Origin: Chloroflexota bacterium
GTDB taxonomy: Bacteria > Chloroflexota > UBA6077 > FW602-bin22
DNA length: 43,607 bases
Direction of reading: 5' to 3'
Assembly: GCA_016875715.1 (NCBI GenBank)
Contig: VGOZ01000023.1
Coordinates: 1 to 43,607 of the forward strand
Under the pieces are notes generated by a model. It made no database searches. It had not been told where the DNA came from and saw only the letters and a list, made by a program, of their open reading frames with translations. The translations under genes and the position numbers were made by a program. This document shows, one piece after another, positions 4,215 through 10,033 of this stretch. Positions within the stretch are counted from its first letter, which is position 1, and every line of letters begins with the position of its first letter.

Positions 4215-4852
4215 TGGCGAAGCGGAACAAGCTCAGCCGGAGCAGCCTCCTCTGGTTCATCCGCAGCCGCTCGTACGTCCCGGTGCCGGAACTGCGCCGC
4301 CGCTTCGATCTGGATGGTATTGACGAGATCCGTGTGATCCAGACCGGGGACGGTCCGGCCTACGTTGGGCTGCCTGAGCGCGCCGCCCAGTTCGTCGAGG
4401 CCCTCACACGTGAGAGCCGCCTCGGGCTCAATTTCGCGCCCGATCTTACCGGCCGCATTGTCCAGGGCATTTATGCCCACGAACCCGTGCGCGTCCCGGT
4501 CGGCCTGCAGGGGTCGGCCAGGGCGAACGAAGCACCTCCGGATGAACCGGAGGGTGACGATGCGGAGGACGGGGAGTCAGCGGTTCGCAACCAGGCCGTA
4601 ACGATCGTTCGGCGACCGCTGCCGCGCCCGATGCGCGCTGGCGGGCATTTCCGCGGTGCGCCCGATCGACTGCCCGAGGCAAACGCCTTGGCGACCAACG
4701 ATCCCTTGGCTGTCGATGCGTCGCGGACTCAGGCCGCTGGCGAGGATGTTAGACCGCCGCAGGGGCGCCGGCGTGGGCGCCGACGGGGGCGCCGGGGTTC
4801 AGGTTCGGGCGCGCCGGCTGGCGAAGCGCCACCATCGCCTCCAGAGCCCTGA
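4214..4852 (+). CDS. Uncharacterised protein with possible winged-helix N-terminus and Arg/Gly-rich tail
   Basis: 212 residues, no recognised family. Residues 1-70 (SLLWFIRSRSYVPVPELRR, then a short beta-hairpin-like DEIRVIQTGDGPAYVGL) resemble a winged helix-turn-helix. Residues 100-185 are low complexity with an acidic patch (EPEGDDAEDGE). The C-terminus has a basic RG-type repeat (RRRGRRRGRRGSGSG) ending in Pro-rich sequence. Such tails usually bind RNA or DNA, so a nucleic-acid role is inferred. The start ATG overlaps the stop of the upstream gene (TGATG). Its last 104 bases overlap the 3' end of the opposing glycosyltransferase gene. Confidence 0.6.
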   Translation: MAKRNKLSRSSLLWFIRSRSYVPVPELRRRFDLDGIDEIRVIQTGDGPAYVGLPERAAQFVEALTRESRLGLNFAPDLTGRIVQGIYAHEPVRVPVGLQGSARANEAPPDEPEGDDAEDGESAVRNQAVTIVRRPLPRPMRAGGHFRGAPDRLPEANALATNDPLAVDASRTQAAGEDVRPPQGRRRGRRRGRRGSGSGAPAGEAPPSPPEP

Positions 4853-6332
4853 CCGCCGAGGCCAGATCACCGGACGCCTGATAGGCGTCCGCGAGCGCGT
4901 GGAGGTACTCGGCTCTGAGGCGCGGTGCGGCCGACGCGAACTGTGGTGTTTCGATCGCCGCGTCGAGGACTCGTGTGGCGATCGCGGGTTCCCTTCCGGC
5001 CAGAAGCGCCCGGGCCAGTTCCACTCGCAGGGGCAACAGGTAGGGCGCCACGACGACAGCCTCACTGAGACGGTCGACGGCCTCCTGCAGTCGATTCTCT
5101 TGGCGATCGAGTCGCGCCCGTGCGATCACCAGCGCGGGGTTCTCGGGTGTCCGCGCGAGCGCCCGCTCCAGCAGGTCGCGCGCGCCGACCGGATCCGCGT
5201 GGGCGATCGCCTCGGCGCGATGGAGGGCGATCTCCGCGGACAAAGGGAGGATCGCCGCGGCGCGATCGAAATAGTCCAGTGCCAGCGAGACGTCGCCACG
5301 GCGTCGGCCGATCTCTCCGCGAAGTAGCAGCAGGCGGACGCGCGAACCCTCGCGCGGAGAGATATCCGCGACTCTCGGAGCACGGGAATCCGCAAGTGCG
5401 AGGCCGGCCTCGGCGATCGCGTCGGCCCGCGCGAAGTCCCCTTCATGCACGGCGGCCGACGCGGCGAGGGCATGCAGAGCGAGGCTGCCCGTGTGCGCCG
5501 CCACGCGCGCGGCAAACTCGGCCGCCTCGCGATATTCGCCCGAGCTCACCAGAGCGATCGCGTACGACTGGCAGGCGTACATCCAGGCTTCGGCGGGCAG
5601 TTCCCGCTCGAATGCTGCCAGATGGTCGCGATAGATCTCCAGCGCCTGGGCGTTGCGTGCCTGGGCTGCGTACTCCTGGGCCAGGTAGAAGAGCGTGATC
5701 GTTCGCTCGCCGCCCGAACGCAACTGTTCGTAGAGGAGACGGAGGTTGCGGTCCCACTTCTCCTGGCGCGTGCGCTCCGACGCGGTGTAGCCGTGGTGGA
5801 GCACCTCGATCGCATCGACGTGCCCGACCTCGATCGGTCGGTCGAGCAGATCGATTCGCCACTCCTCGTGCACCGGTCGAGCGTACCGCAGTCCCGGAGT
5901 GTTGCTGGCCAGGCGGCGTAACCTCGCCTGATGCAAGTCCCCGTAATCGTCCACGGAAGAGACGGTGACCGTGAGCAGAGTCGGACCGGACGGATCGCGC
6001 GCGACGATCGCGCGGAGGGGTTCAATTGAGGCGGCTGTGAGTTCCTCGTCCGCGTCGAGGATCAGCAGCCAGGCCCCGTGCGCCTGGTTGATGGCGGCGT
6101 TGCGCGCGTGGCTGAAGTCGTTTTGCCAGGCGATCTCGAACACGCGCGCACGGTGCGCGCGCGCGACCTCGCGGGTGCGGTCAACCGAGCCAGTGTCCAC
6201 AACGATCGTCTCGTCGGCAATACCGCGAACGCTACGGAGGAGGCGGGGAAGGTTACGCTCCTCGTTCTTTGCAATGACGCACAGCGAGAGGCGAGGCGAA
6301 GCGGCGGCGCTGCGCCGGCGCGCCTCACCCAC
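4749..6332 (-). CDS. GT2 family glycosyltransferase with C-terminal TPR-like repeats
   Basis: A 527-residue protein. Residues 15-240 form a GT-A domain: LSLCVIAKNEE start, DTGSVDRT (46-53), and metal-binding DADEE (DxD at 93-95). The remainder is alpha-helical with repeated TPR-like segments rich in Ala and Leu (for example AADAYQASGDLASAVRALEA near the end), typical of GT2-TPR proteins that glycosylate proteins or build surface glycans. The start is GTG. It sits 54 bases downstream of fliS and points the same way as flagellin and fliS, so it probably shares their transcript and may modify flagellin. The 3' end overlaps the convergent gene by 104 bases. Confidence 0.85.
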   Translation of the reverse strand: MGEARRRSAAASPRLSLCVIAKNEERNLPRLLRSVRGIADETIVVDTGSVDRTREVARAHRARVFEIAWQNDFSHARNAAINQAHGAWLLILDADEELTAASIEPLRAIVARDPSGPTLLTVTVSSVDDYGDLHQARLRRLASNTPGLRYARPVHEEWRIDLLDRPIEVGHVDAIEVLHHGYTASERTRQEKWDRNLRLLYEQLRSGGERTITLFYLAQEYAAQARNAQALEIYRDHLAAFERELPAEAWMYACQSYAIALVSSGEYREAAEFAARVAAHTGSLALHALAASAAVHEGDFARADAIAEAGLALADSRAPRVADISPREGSRVRLLLLRGEIGRRRGDVSLALDYFDRAAAILPLSAEIALHRAEAIAHADPVGARDLLERALARTPENPALVIARARLDRQENRLQEAVDRLSEAVVVAPYLLPLRVELARALLAGREPAIATRVLDAAIETPQFASAAPRLRAEYLHALADAYQASGDLASAVRALEAMVALRQPARPNLNPGAPVGAHAGAPAAV

Positions 6333-6386
6333 GGCGATACGCCTGGCGATGCGTCACACGCTGACTATCGGCCGGGTCGAGACCGG

Positions 6387-6803
6387 TCAGCAGTGCCGGT
6401 CGAGAGACGGCCGAGCGACCGCGGGCTTCGGCGGACCGGACGGGAGCGCGATCGACTCCCACGCGCCGAGGAGTTCGCGAAGGTGCCTGATCGCCTCATC
6501 GATCGAGGCGATCTGCTTCTCGATGTTCGCCTGGTAAAGCTGCTGGTAGATGTAGTTGTGGAGCGCGAAGAGATCCTGCGTAATCTGCTCCGTCCCCGGC
6601 CGAAAGCCGATCATCAGCTCGATGACAATCTCCTGCGCGCGGAGCAGGCTGCGGTGACTGCCCTGGACGTCGCGGCTGGCCATCTGCATCCTGGCCTTGG
6701 TGGCGAAGCGAATAGTCCCGCGATACAGCATCACCACGAGCTCGGCCTGACTGCTGCTCACTGCTTGGGCGCGCGCGTACGCATTCACAGAAAGGGGGGC
6801 CAT
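6387..6803 (-). CDS. fliS: Flagellar secretion chaperone FliS
   Basis: 138 residues from the ATG at 6803, beginning MAPLSVNAYARAQ. Family features are the ELVVMLYRGTIRF helix, the HRSLLRAQEIVIELM helix, and the LFALHNYIYQQLYQANIEK helix that packs the flagellin C-terminus. FliS binds newly made flagellin, stops premature polymerisation and delivers it to the export gate. An upstream in-frame ATG exists, but GGAGG nine bases before this ATG decides the start. The C-terminal 20 residues are Pro-rich. It lies directly downstream of flagellin, as expected for a chaperone and its client. Confidence 0.93.
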   Translation of the reverse strand: MAPLSVNAYARAQAVSSSQAELVVMLYRGTIRFATKARMQMASRDVQGSHRSLLRAQEIVIELMIGFRPGTEQITQDLFALHNYIYQQLYQANIEKQIASIDEAIRHLRELLGAWESIALPSGPPKPAVARPSLDRHC

Positions 6804-6945
6804 CAGGAGCCTCCGTTCGCGCATCGATCGGCGCATCCCCAACCCCACGGGGTTTCCCCTAAAGGAATGCGCCGCCCGTTCCGATAATGACCGCGTGGCC
6901 CGAGTGGCCAGCGATTAACAGGTGAAGAGATCGTCCTACGGTTCC

Positions 6946-7773
6946 TTACTGAAGGAGCTGGAGGACGAACTGGGTCGAGAAGTTGGCCGCCGACAGGGCA
7001 GCGGCGCCGGCTTGCTGCTTGATCTGATTGGCGACCAGGTTGCTCACCTCGAGGGCGACATCGGCGTCTCGCACGCGTGCGCGGGCCTCGGAGTTCGACA
7101 CGACGGACACTTCGTTCGCGTTCTGCAGGGCTTCGAGTGACGTGATGACGGCTCCCAGCCTCGACCGGCCATCGGCCACGTCGGTGAGCGCGGTGTCGAG
7201 ATTTCCTATCGCGGTGACGGCGTTGGCCTTCGAGGTGATCACGACCGCAGCACCCAAACTGAGATCGTCCGCGGTGTAGCCCATATCCGAGAAGGTAAAT
7301 GTTTGCGTCGCCGCGGCGGTGGCGCCCACCTGCAGGCTGATCGTCGTCAGCGTACCGTCGAGGAGAGCGGTTCCGTTGAACGTGGAGCCTGACGCGATCT
7401 GCGTCAGCGACGAGCGCAGAGCCTGAAACTCAGCGTTCAGGTGTACGAATTCCTCGGCGCTGTTCATGGAGTTGTTCGCCTGAACGGCCAGTTCGCGCAT
7501 GCGCTGGATCACATCGTAAATGTTAGAAAGGTCGGCGTCGGCCACCTGCGCCGCCGACATTGACATCTGGATATTCAGGTTGGCCGCTTGGGCTCCCCGG
7601 ATCGCCGAGGTCAGCGATTCGGCCATGAAGATCCCCGCAGGATCGTCGGCGGAGCTGTTGATGCGCAGCCCTGACGACAGTCGCTCCGTCGTCCGCGCCA
7701 GGGCGTTGTTGGTGATGTTCAACAACCGCGCGCTGTTGATGGACGAGATATTGGTGTTCAGCGAAAGGACCAT
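6946..7773 (-). CDS. fliC: Flagellin (short form)
   Basis: 275 residues with the conserved D0/D1 ends: SLNTNISSINSARLLN at the N-terminus, LSSGLRINSSADDPAG, and NLVANQIKQQAGAA with a C-terminal coiled-coil ending FVLQLLQ. The middle domain is small (about residues 130-200), so the D2/D3 outer domains are missing and the filament surface should be smooth. RBS GGAGG lies nine bases before the ATG. There are many Ser, Thr and Asn residues in the central part, possible glycosylation targets. No hook, basal body or motor genes are in the window, so the rest of the flagellar regulon lies elsewhere. Confidence 0.96.
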   Translation of the reverse strand: MVLSLNTNISSINSARLLNITNNALARTTERLSSGLRINSSADDPAGIFMAESLTSAIRGAQAANLNIQMSMSAAQVADADLSNIYDVIQRMRELAVQANNSMNSAEEFVHLNAEFQALRSSLTQIASGSTFNGTALLDGTLTTISLQVGATAAATQTFTFSDMGYTADDLSLGAAVVITSKANAVTAIGNLDTALTDVADGRSRLGAVITSLEALQNANEVSVVSNSEARARVRDADVALEVSNLVANQIKQQAGAAALSAANFSTQFVLQLLQ

Positions 7774-7813: not shown

Positions 7814-7862
7814 AGTATGCGGGCGTGTTCTCGGAAGGTGAACCCTTAGGGAGTTCCCTTAG
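7814..7862 (-). promoter_or_regulatory. Putative flagellin promoter with tandem CTAAGGG repeats
   Basis: On the flagellin strand a TTCACC (7837-7842), 17 bases, CATACT (7814-7819) arrangement matches the sigma-70-type consensus at 4 of 6 positions in each box. Two CTAAGGG copies 13 bases apart (7856-7862 and 7843-7849) abut the -35 box, where an activator would sit. They also form a small palindrome AGGGA-AC-TCCCT. No clear sigma-28 promoter was found. This is inferred from spacing only. Confidence 0.4.
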
Positions 7863-7953
7863 CGGTCGGTCAGAAACGGCTGCACACTCGATTCAGGCAG
7901 AACTTCACCACCTCCGCGCCTGCGGAGATTTCATAGGCGCGCGAACAGCAAGA

Positions 7954-7974
7954 ACTTCCGATCTCTTCGGAAGT
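7954..7974. repeat. 8-bp inverted repeat upstream of transposase-like gene
   Basis: ACTTCCGA (7954-7961) and TCGGAAGT (7967-7974) form a perfect 8-bp stem with a 5-base loop, 32 bases before the ATG of the transposase-like gene. It is in the divergent region shared with flagellin. It could be an operator for a dimeric regulator or a binding site of the transposase-like protein itself. Confidence 0.5.
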
Positions 7975-8006
7975 ACCGGACTCGCGGGTTGAGGAGGATC
8001 GAGGCG

Positions 8007-9179
8007 ATGCAGGATCTGGCGCGGCGCTATCGCGTCCTGACGATGGTGCTGCTCGGCGCGATCTCCATCGCCGAGGCGGGGCGGCGACTGTCGCTGTCGT
8101 ACCGCCAGACGTGGACCCTCTATGGCAGGTTCCGCGATGCGGGCGGCAGCCTGGACTCACTGCGGTTCCAGCGCGAGCATCCCGCGCCGAATCGCACGTC
8201 GGACGCCGTTCGCGAGGCGGTGTTTCGTCTTCACGAGCGTTACCCGGATGCTGGCCATACTGCCCTGGCGGAGATCCTCGCAGGTGATGAGGGCGTGCGC
8301 ATCAGTCCGCAGACGGTGCGGCGCATCCGCATGCAGGCGCCGACACCGCTTGGCCGCATCACCCCCATCCGGCGCGCGCGGAACTATCCCTCCCACGATG
8401 CGCGTCTCCTTCGCCTCGAGCGGCTCTGGGTACCGGCGGCCGGCCGCCGCCACGTCTTTCAGTTGATCGAGGATGACGTCTCGGGGCGACCGCTCGTCGG
8501 ACGAGTCTTCGACCGAGGCGGAGCGCTCGATAGCCTGATGCTGGTGCGCTGGATGCTCGAACAGCACGGTGCGCCGGATGTCCTGTTCCTCGCCGATCCC
8601 GCGTCGTTCCACATGCCCAGAACCGACTACGCGCACGAGACCGAGTACCGCCGCGAGATGCTCGGCCTTCGGGCGCAGGTCCACCAGCTCCTGCTCGAAC
8701 TGGGCACGCGTGTCGAAATGCCACGCGGGTCGGAGAGTCCGCGCACCGAGCAGTGGGCCTCGTTCGCCCGCGACGCGCGCCGTGCGACGAGCCTCGCCGA
8801 GGCGAATGCGATCCTGCAGCGGCACATCGAGGTGCTCGCCGGCGGCCGTTACGGAGCGGCCCCCGCGCAGGCCAGCCCGCGACGGGTTCAAGCGCGCTTC
8901 ACGCCCGTTCCCGAGCAGTACGCGCTCGACGATGTGTTCTGCGTCTACCTGCGGCGCAGAGTCGCCACGGATGGCTCCTTCATCGTCGATGGGGTGCCCT
9001 ACCGCGTCAGTCGCGGACTCGGGTATCGCGGTTGGGCCGGCATCGAACTGGGAATCCGCGTCTCACCAGGACGCTCGCTAACGTGTTTCTTCCAGGGCGA
9101 GCAGATCGAGGAATACGCCATCGCGACCGCAGACGCGTCGGCCAGGTTCGACGAGAGGACCATCGGCGCGAACGGATAA
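8007..9179 (+). CDS. Solitary transposase-like protein (ISNCY/integrase-core type), probably catalytically degenerate
   Basis: 390 residues. Residues 1-55 form a helix-turn-helix (ISIAEAGRRLSLSYRQTW), followed by a second HTH-like region. Residues about 135-280 resemble the RNase H-fold core of ISNCY-type transposases: FQLIEDDVSGRPL, LFLADPASFHMP and SPRTEQWASF align with the family's IDDATG, SDRHSIF and GRVERLW segments. SLAEANAILQ and the final LDDVFCVYL/VPYRVSRG match the family C-terminus. The first catalytic Asp (family motif QIDGS) falls on Leu-rich sequence (LLRLERLW), and the lysine-glycine before the last Glu is replaced. The ATG at 8007 is chosen because AGGAGG lies nine bases upstream; an earlier in-frame TTG would bury that site. 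No terminal inverted repeats or target duplications were found around it. Confidence 0.7.
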   Translation: MQDLARRYRVLTMVLLGAISIAEAGRRLSLSYRQTWTLYGRFRDAGGSLDSLRFQREHPAPNRTSDAVREAVFRLHERYPDAGHTALAEILAGDEGVRISPQTVRRIRMQAPTPLGRITPIRRARNYPSHDARLLRLERLWVPAAGRRHVFQLIEDDVSGRPLVGRVFDRGGALDSLMLVRWMLEQHGAPDVLFLADPASFHMPRTDYAHETEYRREMLGLRAQVHQLLLELGTRVEMPRGSESPRTEQWASFARDARRATSLAEANAILQRHIEVLAGGRYGAAPAQASPRRVQARFTPVPEQYALDDVFCVYLRRRVATDGSFIVDGVPYRVSRGLGYRGWAGIELGIRVSPGRSLTCFFQGEQIEEYAIATADASARFDERTIGANG

Positions 9180-9226
9180 GGAGTTCGCTGATTGCGGCCG
9201 CGGGACGCGATCTGACAGTATCAGCG

Positions 9227-10033
9227 GTGGTGCGTTGGACGATCGCGAGCCTGATTGTCGCGCTCGTGGCGGTGGGCTGCGGTCCGCAGTTCGTCGACGC
9301 GCCCGCGCCGCGTCCCGCCGAACCGATCGTCGTGGCCGCGGTGGGGCGGGTCGTCACGTCCACGCCCGTCGGCGTGCAGCCTCCACTGCCAACGCCCACG
9401 TTCAACGTCGGGTTCGGCGCGATCCTCACGCCGCTGGCCCAGACTCCGCTGCCCACGATCGCGATTCCGCCCACACCGACGGTCGCCCTGCTCCCCACCC
9501 GGACGCGGGCGCCGTCCGTGACGCCTTTTCCGACGATCTCCATCCCCCCCACCGCGACGCGGCCGCCGCTGCTCACCGCGATCCTTCCGCCCCGGCGACC
9601 GACGATCGCGCGATCGCCAATCCCCACCAATACTCCCGTTCCACCACCGACGGCGACGCCAGTGGACCCAAGCGAGCCGGCTGACGGTAACAACGATCTA
9701 TCGACAGCCGCCTTTGCGGATCTCGACACCGATATCCGCGGGATCATCAGTTCGCCGACGGATGTTGACGTCTACCGGTTCGACATCGTTGACGATTCCG
9801 ATGAGAACCAGATCGTGGTGACCCTCACCGCGCAGCAGATCAATCTCTACCAGCTGTTCCTCATCTCCCCGGGCCGACGATCCGCGGCCTACGGCACGCC
9901 GGTGGGTAGCGTTGCGCGGCACATCATCTACCCGGTTCGAGGCGAGGTGGGCACCTGGTACGTCGAGATCTCGACTCCCCCGGGGAAGCGCGTTCCCCAG
10001 GGCACGTACACACTGCGAGTCGAGACGCGATAG
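9227..10033 (+). CDS. Pro/Thr-rich lipoprotein with PPC-like C-terminal domain
   Basis: 268 residues from the GTG at 9227. Signal peptide WTIASLIVALVAVGC gives a lipobox with Cys18. Residues 19-150 are a long Pro/Thr/Ala linker with many TPTP-, IPPT- and TRPP-like units, suited to spanning a cell wall or glycan layer. Residues about 158-268 resemble a bacterial pre-peptidase C-terminal (PPC) beta domain: GIISSPTDVDVYRFDI, a hydrophobic strand, then GTWYVEI and GTYTLRV strands. The role is unknown, possibly surface binding. The open frame continues far upstream inside the preceding gene, but only this part reads as protein. The start is one of two adjacent GTG codons. Confidence 0.75.
   Translation: MVRWTIASLIVALVAVGCGPQFVDAPAPRPAEPIVVAAVGRVVTSTPVGVQPPLPTPTFNVGFGAILTPLAQTPLPTIAIPPTPTVALLPTRTRAPSVTPFPTISIPPTATRPPLLTAILPPRRPTIARSPIPTNTPVPPPTATPVDPSEPADGNNDLSTAAFADLDTDIRGIISSPTDVDVYRFDIVDDSDENQIVVTLTAQQINLYQLFLISPGRRSAAYGTPVGSVARHIIYPVRGEVGTWYVEISTPPGKRVPQGTYTLRVETR

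Follow-up and report, generated by a model that had tools for sequence, protein, structure and literature searches.

DDE transposases exapted as gene regulators are well documented in eukaryotes; to our knowledge, bacterial ones with a defined regulon are scarce, and searches of the open-access literature showed no case of an IS1202/ISNCY transposase exapted as a regulator among the papers listed. The IS1202 family, once classed as a group within ISNCY, includes TnpAjo2, and the available text of PMC10132070 describes its transposases as combining two N-terminal helix–turn–helix (HTH) bundles, an RNase-H core and a beta barrel. The same text gives D142, D203 and E247 as the DDE residues of TnpAjo2, with a Gln seven residues after the Glu, and ISAjo2-type ends as 24–26-bp terminal inverted repeats (TIRs) with an extra internal transposase site. 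RAG1 is described, in the part of PMC10045372 available, as a domesticated eukaryotic DDE transposase, and the TldR proteins, in the accessible text of PMC13418256, as TnpB-derived, nuclease-dead, RNA-guided repressors beside flagellin.

Here we analysed a window of 43,607 nt, contig C23 of a Chloroflexota assembly (G000; 3.38 Mb in 171 contigs, 94% complete, 5.5% contamination), in which a gene at 8007–9179 (plus strand) encodes a 390-aa protein that profile searches, alignments, synteny and copy number point to as a domesticated IS1202/ISNCY-type transposase derivative. Its frame is open from the ATG at 8007 to the stop at 9179, with an in-frame TTG at 7989 and 'GAGGAGG' before the ATG, which is the likely start because two orthologs share protein from MQDLARRY. 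A flagellin gene (6946–7773, minus strand; Flagellin_N and Flagellin_C) is divergent from the same gap. The intact frame with its ribosome-binding site and the divergent flagellin thus stand as the first-pass annotation of this DNA had read them.

Descent from the IS1202 (ISNCY) family, which that annotation had also proposed, is secure as far as sequence comparison reaches, because profile–profile alignment (hhalign) to four canonical ISNCY transposases from same-phylum genomes gave a probability of 99 over 350 columns; yet the NCBIfam ISNCY profile NF033594 scored only 55.4 bits with the window protein and 60.5 bits with its ortholog, far under the cut-off of 250. The window protein's alignment with canonical IS1202 transposases takes in the HTH region, the core and the C-terminal beta-rich part, and divides the protein into an N-terminal HTH region, an RNase-H-like core that appears to lack the first catalytic Asp, and a C-terminal beta-rich domain. 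Unlike them, it is without the first Asp, the Lys-Gly and the E+7 Gln, no TIRs were found, and it is single copy. Pfam matches to PF13565 (HTH_32, 1e-6) and PF13384 (HTH_23, 0.087) were both under the Pfam cut-off, and plasmid ISNCY relatives shared about 25–28% identity among the matches listed (15 of 1094). Two AlphaFold2 models, from two-sequence and single-sequence inputs, had mean pLDDT values of 38.2 and 38.9, both below 40; a PDB sequence search with the protein gave one chance-level match (E 0.48), and one with the ISNCY profile gave two weak matches.

On balance, we lean towards the reading that an exapted IS1202-family transposase now regulates itself, two accessory flagellins and a methyltransferase through a shared motif. 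An IS1202-family (ISNCY) DDE transposase would have lost its transposition chemistry and kept end-type DNA binding, and its descendant would be a sequence-specific transcription regulator that binds the motif. The predicted sites are a motif pair that sits both in the promoter region of its own gene and behind the promoter of the divergent flagellin, a single motif near the start of an unlinked second flagellin gene, and a pair upstream of the methyltransferase gene; the protein would thereby control its own gene and coordinate the two accessory flagellins with a possible modifying enzyme, separately from the remaining, motif-less flagellins. By analogy, TldR is the nearest functional parallel, with a different ancestry. 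As far as the available TldR text goes, both are transposon-derived and lie beside a flagellin gene, and TldR has lost nuclease activity and keeps DNA targeting, as proposed here; TldR derives from TnpB, is guided by RNA and, in its flagellin clade, resides in prophages, whereas the window protein is a DDE relative, presumably protein-guided, encoded between flagellin and ileS/aspS. Pfam and NCBIfam searches gave only HTH domains and DDE transposase families, and no TnpB homology. The protein resembles RAG1 as a host gene product derived from a DDE transposase, and differs from it, catalytic as RAG1 is in the text available, by its degenerate core and its bacterial host. If this reading is true, TnpB and a DDE transposase, which are unrelated, would have been independently disarmed and placed next to flagellin genes, a pattern suggesting that recruits of this kind are favoured time and again in flagellin switching. 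Given the operator set, the idea of a regulator could be tested directly with a single protein and three short pieces of DNA.

The motif, with consensus TGAAGTTCTTCCTGTCAC and partial dyad symmetry (GGAAG-TT-CTTCC), was present in both G000 and the genome of another genus that carries the ortholog (G001), with two copies in the flagellin/transposase gap, one upstream of the unlinked second flagellin and two upstream of an orthologous methyltransferase gene. Both window copies are on the minus strand: copy 1, GAAGTTCTTGCTG, lies at 7946–7958 (24-mer scored, 7938–7961), overlapping the left arm of a palindrome, and copy 2, GAAGTTCTGCCTG, at 7894–7906 (24-mer scored, 7886–7909), 52 bp from copy 1. 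The gap of the ortholog (L008) holds GAAGTTCTTCCTG and GAAGTTCTGTCTG, 51 bp apart; aligning the two gaps showed all four copies as repeated conserved blocks. Because spacings of 52 and 51 bp are about five helical turns, two bound proteins could share one face of the DNA. At the second flagellins, which are orthologous and syntenic, the motif was noticed by eye and ends 30 bp (G000) and 29 bp (G001) before the start codon; this is the expected position of a core promoter and would suit repression of this gene.

The gap and second-flagellin sites were spotted by eye before they were counted; the methyltransferase sites were the only ones to emerge from a scan made afterwards. The best local match between the gap and the region upstream of the second flagellin was equalled in 0 of 200 shuffles for G001 and 12 of 200 for G000; among six other gap–flagellin comparisons, one (L057a) shared another word with the gap and was equalled in 5 of 200, outdoing the second flagellin of G000, and five were unremarkable. 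Genome-wide, the pattern GAAGTTYTKNCTG occurred at four places in G000 (two in the gap, one at the second flagellin and one inside a GTPase-like frame) and at three in G001 (two in the gap and one at the second flagellin), with 0 and 1, respectively, for reversed-pattern controls; these counts show rarity elsewhere rather than discovery, because the pattern was written from those six sites. Ten operator sites were scored in all, including one from the first pattern (G001_gap2) and one picked by eye (G001_mt2), neither of which passes the one-mismatch pattern. When each locus was left out in turn, nine of the ten ranked first or second in their 9–44-kb stretch, and the tenth ranked third in the window. 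Held-out scores were 18.2–22.1 bits for six sites and 13.0–14.1 bits for four, against 10.1–13.1 bits for the best other match; the four low sites are little above their background of 11.7–13.1 bits.

The later scan, with GAAGTTYTTCCTG and one mismatch allowed, returned 6 places in G000 and 13 in G001, barely more than the 4 and 8 of the controls, and the case for the motif therefore rests on its placement at orthologous genes. Two G000 places, 65 bp apart, lie upstream of a methyltransferase-like open reading frame (ORF) on G000:C54, and one G001 place lies upstream of the orthologous gene on G001:C37, where a second copy, 53 bp away, was picked by eye. The two methyltransferases are orthologous at only 43% identity, and by our own arithmetic the chance of a G001 place lying in the 300-bp stretch upstream of one particular ortholog is about 1 in 1000. 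Among the other 11 non-flagellin places (1 in G000, 10 in G001), 10 are inside a listed ORF and L147 is outside. The G000 methyltransferase sites overlap a long antisense ORF (L151, 948–1715), so calling them intergenic is a judgement, and the G000 methyltransferase frame (in L151, 1–2000) carries, in the stretch coding for the N-terminus, an in-frame stop by comparison with G001 (in L152, 4500–5610). A YceI-like gene is divergent from the methyltransferase gene in G000, and the frame upstream of the G001 gene is one that we take to be PIN-like.

At 14 flagellin places of six related genomes without the transposase-derived gene, the best score was 11.5 bits, against 22.5–32.0 bits in-sample here; the 14 places comprise ten (14 overlapping loci) and four in G004, several are fragments, and one (G004:C360) starts at a contig end and has no upstream sequence. 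The other flagellin matches in G000 and G001, four in each, had no motif site nearby, and the best match in their stretches (17.5 bits) was more than 3 kb from its flagellin. The exact motif pattern was not enriched across the remaining 11 genomes of the order, with 20 places against 28 in controls; none of the 20 shares a contig with a flagellin match, and one, inside a long reading frame, scores 24.8 bits, equal to some gap sites.

The motif was also compared with the ends of IS1202-type elements, in which an end motif, in Chloroflexota about CTGTTCTGTGATTnTGTCA, recurs as direct copies ahead of the transposase gene; the canonical ISNCY members showed repeated end motifs, in line with the extra binding sites in the available text of PMC10132070. 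GTTCT followed by TGTCA is common to the operator and the Chloroflexota end motif, with the two blocks separated by 3 in the operator versus 7 in the ends. Three element subsets were put to a permutation test of this two-block likeness, and all three are given here. Permuting IS columns and operator columns equalled the likeness in 6 and 0 of 1500 cases, respectively, for the Chloroflexota elements, in 2 and 1 of 1500 for Chloroflexota plus Paenibacillus, and in 71 and 47 of 1500 when all 30 end copies were pooled, which is weak. End copies were chosen by eye (16 + 13 for the position weight matrix (PWM), 30 for the permutations), a choice that can favour a tidy motif. Six single-frame Chloroflexota elements over the family cut-off were used (L062 and L075–L079), and two interrupted or split ones (L080 and L081) were omitted, as was a second copy from G197 that had no locus; of eight plasmid ISNCY elements, L130–L133 were used, and three that looked like L132 (L129, L134 and L135) and one that looked different (L136) were excluded. 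An operator identical to an unchanged IS end was rejected, as an ungapped PWM of IS ends misses the motif. The likeness of the motif halves to Chloroflexota IS1202-type ends is suggestive. Only tentatively do we go further and propose that the operators descended from, or were shaped like, IS ends with the spacer shortened by four bases, and that the transposase became a dedicated accessory-flagellin transcription factor, a protein-guided counterpart to TldR, which is guided by RNA; if so, the path from transposon end to host operator would be traceable base by base.

The strongest competing explanation, which we regard as unlikely but a serious contender, is that a dead transposase was domesticated for another cellular role, such as DNA architecture or a protein partnership, and that the flagellin motif belongs to an unrelated regulator. 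The evidence for exaptation given below does not by itself require transcription control, and partial dyad symmetry of the kind seen in the motif is typical of ordinary dimeric regulators. Against this, two motif copies lie within the gene's own promoter region, the motif was unseen at the 14 flagellin places of the six gene-less genomes, and each motif half is similar to part of the Chloroflexota IS1202-type ends. The regulatory part of the earlier proposal of a domesticated regulator gains only indirect support, through a conserved motif at the gene's own promoter region, two flagellins and a methyltransferase, and the domestication part stands on copy number, synteny and dN/dS.

The earlier observations that the first catalytic Asp and the Lys-Gly before the last Glu are missing were borne out in both orthologs. 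Canonical ISNCY cores read, in order, Q[I/A/T/V]DGS, IDD, the second Asp and SP[Q/E]AKGR[I/V]ERLW; the corresponding stretches in the window protein and its ortholog are WVP(A/T)AGR, EDDV(S/T)G, (A/P)D(P/S)AS and PR(T/M)EQW. Two sequence alignments put Ala145 at the position of the first catalytic Asp in both proteins, so that the DDE triad of the IS1202 family appears incomplete, and the loop after this position is shortened relative to canonical IS1202 members. Lys-Gly is absent before the Glu, and Arg255 occupies the E+7 position, where the family has Gln. The core is only partly degenerate, because both orthologs still have D197 as the second Asp and E248 as the Glu, 51 residues apart in the window protein versus 52 in the canonical member of G009. 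Between the two genera, 27 of 30 residues are identical over residues 121–150, which include the Asp-less stretch, and 29 of 30 over residues 1–30; since the loss of the first Asp is common to both orthologs, it predates their split. The protein is probably catalytically dead, as judged from these alignments. A recombinase that is still active with a rearranged site, in which E138 or D131 replaces the first Asp, and that acts at a fixed locus, for example by inverting flagellin DNA, is improbable: E138 and D131, near the missing Asp, are conserved in both orthologs together with D197 and E248, but Ala145 takes the place of the first Asp in both alignments, Lys-Gly and the family Gln are lost, and no convincing inverted repeats around the gene bound an invertible segment.

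Domestication of the transposase-derived gene is well supported by comparison between genomes. Single matches were found in its own assembly and in G001; multiple near-identical copies flanked by inverted repeats, which by the first-pass annotation would have spoken against domestication, were not found. A search of 41 genomes, with its own among them, gave matches at E ≤ 0.001 in seven, and G001, of the same family but another genus, was the only ortholog carrier (72–74% amino-acid identity); among 13 genomes of the order and 29 of the class, strong full-length matches occurred only in G000 and G001, and G009, which matched weakly, did so with a canonical ISNCY transposase. A scan of an 84,980-species collection, in which seeding uses exact peptide patterns so that diverged relatives may escape, found one relative, SCUE01000037.1 (L008; Chloroflexi bacterium FW602_bin.22). 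Viral-contig scans gave no relatives apart from one ISNCY relative (L101), which was left unused, and phage records gave one weak match.

The neighbourhood is retained gene for gene in the other genus, in the order lipoprotein, two small genes, family-2 glycosyltransferase with TPR repeats (GT2-TPR), FliS, flagellin, transposase-derived gene, lipoprotein, ileS, aspS and selA, with conserved synteny from the lipoprotein gene at 2521 through ileS, aspS and selA. In six other genomes of the order, flagellin, FliS, the transposase-derived gene and the lipoprotein were unmatched in the 4–10 kb downstream of ileS, and four of the six had an SDR-like match there. For the ortholog pair (72% amino-acid identity), the NG86 dN/dS of 0.161, at a dS of 1.30 that is near saturation, was the lowest of 11 gene pairs; the others ranged from 0.174 to 0.526, including ileS (0.174), aspS (0.176), FliS (0.210) and flagellin (0.221). 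The ortholog alignment has 3 gap columns in 389 codons, and 21 of 2000 frames remained open in a neutral simulation with substitutions only and half the divergence. These values indicate that the DNA-binding N-terminus and the rest of the protein are under strong purifying selection.

In line with the first-pass annotation, which had seen no terminal repeats, a search for IS ends around 8007–9179 found no convincing element ends, TIRs or extra internal transposase sites. A weak, right-end-like IS1202 match at 9213–9228 (minus strand), 34 bp past the stop, is not conserved in the ortholog and is possibly a right-end relic or chance. The gene thus combines, in the two genomes that carry it, a single copy, cross-genus synteny, purifying selection and no element ends. 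A recently stranded, decaying IS copy that is still unbroken, with which the missing ends, the lost first Asp and the right-end-like match at 9213 would agree, is highly improbable and largely refuted by the recurrence of the degenerate core and of the synteny in another genus, the dN/dS of 0.16 at a dS of about 1.3 with so few gaps, and the absence of that match from the ortholog.

The palindrome just upstream of the gene, ACTTCCGA-N5-TCGGAAGT (7954–7974; 8-bp arms), which had been put forward for binding tests, is real, but it is not conserved as such: the left arm is kept in the ortholog and the right arm is not, and a shorter dyad, CCGAT-TCGCG-ATCGG, was seen there by eye. It is the only exact copy in the 3.38-Mb assembly, with one further place at two mismatches, and we rejected it as a binding site on these two grounds, the conserved left arm alone and the lack of a second exact copy. 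On the minus strand of the window it also scores as a terminator-like hairpin (1 found; mean of shuffles, 0.3), and none was found in the ortholog.

Directly 3′ of the transposase-derived gene and on the same strand, a putative lipoprotein gene (9227–10033, plus strand), conserved in the ortholog and without a match in Pfam and NCBIfam searches, is possibly co-transcribed with it. On the flagellin side, a putative core promoter, TTCACC-N17-CATACT, was recognized by eye at 7814–7842 (minus strand), with hexamers and spacing identical in the ortholog; a strict sigma-70 scan of the flagellin/transposase gap found no promoter. Directly upstream of it, also by eye, lies a repeated element of the CTAAGGG type (7843–7862, minus strand), which in the gap of L008 is an 8-bp inverted repeat, CCTAAGGG/CCCTTAGG, and through which a second regulator may act on the window flagellin.

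Beyond the flagellin gene lie those for the flagellin chaperone FliS (6387–6848, minus strand; PF02561, 3.6e-28) and for the GT2-TPR protein (4749–6332, minus strand; assigned by domain search), the latter possibly a flagellin glycosyltransferase, from its position. The three genes (window 4749–7773) recur at another flagellin locus, G000:C1 and G001:C24 (L057 and L058), which gives the window block the appearance of a duplicated flagellin cassette. One main-locus flagellin per genome has, by eye, a sigma-28-like promoter instead of the motif. At the second flagellin locus (noted at L060, 6352–6398, and L059, 4961–5051), the flagellin is 295 aa long, and Pfam gives only Flagellin_N; by eye, no other flagellar gene was recognized in the 10–11 kb around it, and the gene divergent from it is presumably DUF1537-like. 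In a flagellated relative, locus L065 (G004:C159) has a DDE transposase frame followed by an AAA-ATPase-like frame, which we take to be a Tn7/Mu-type-like pair.
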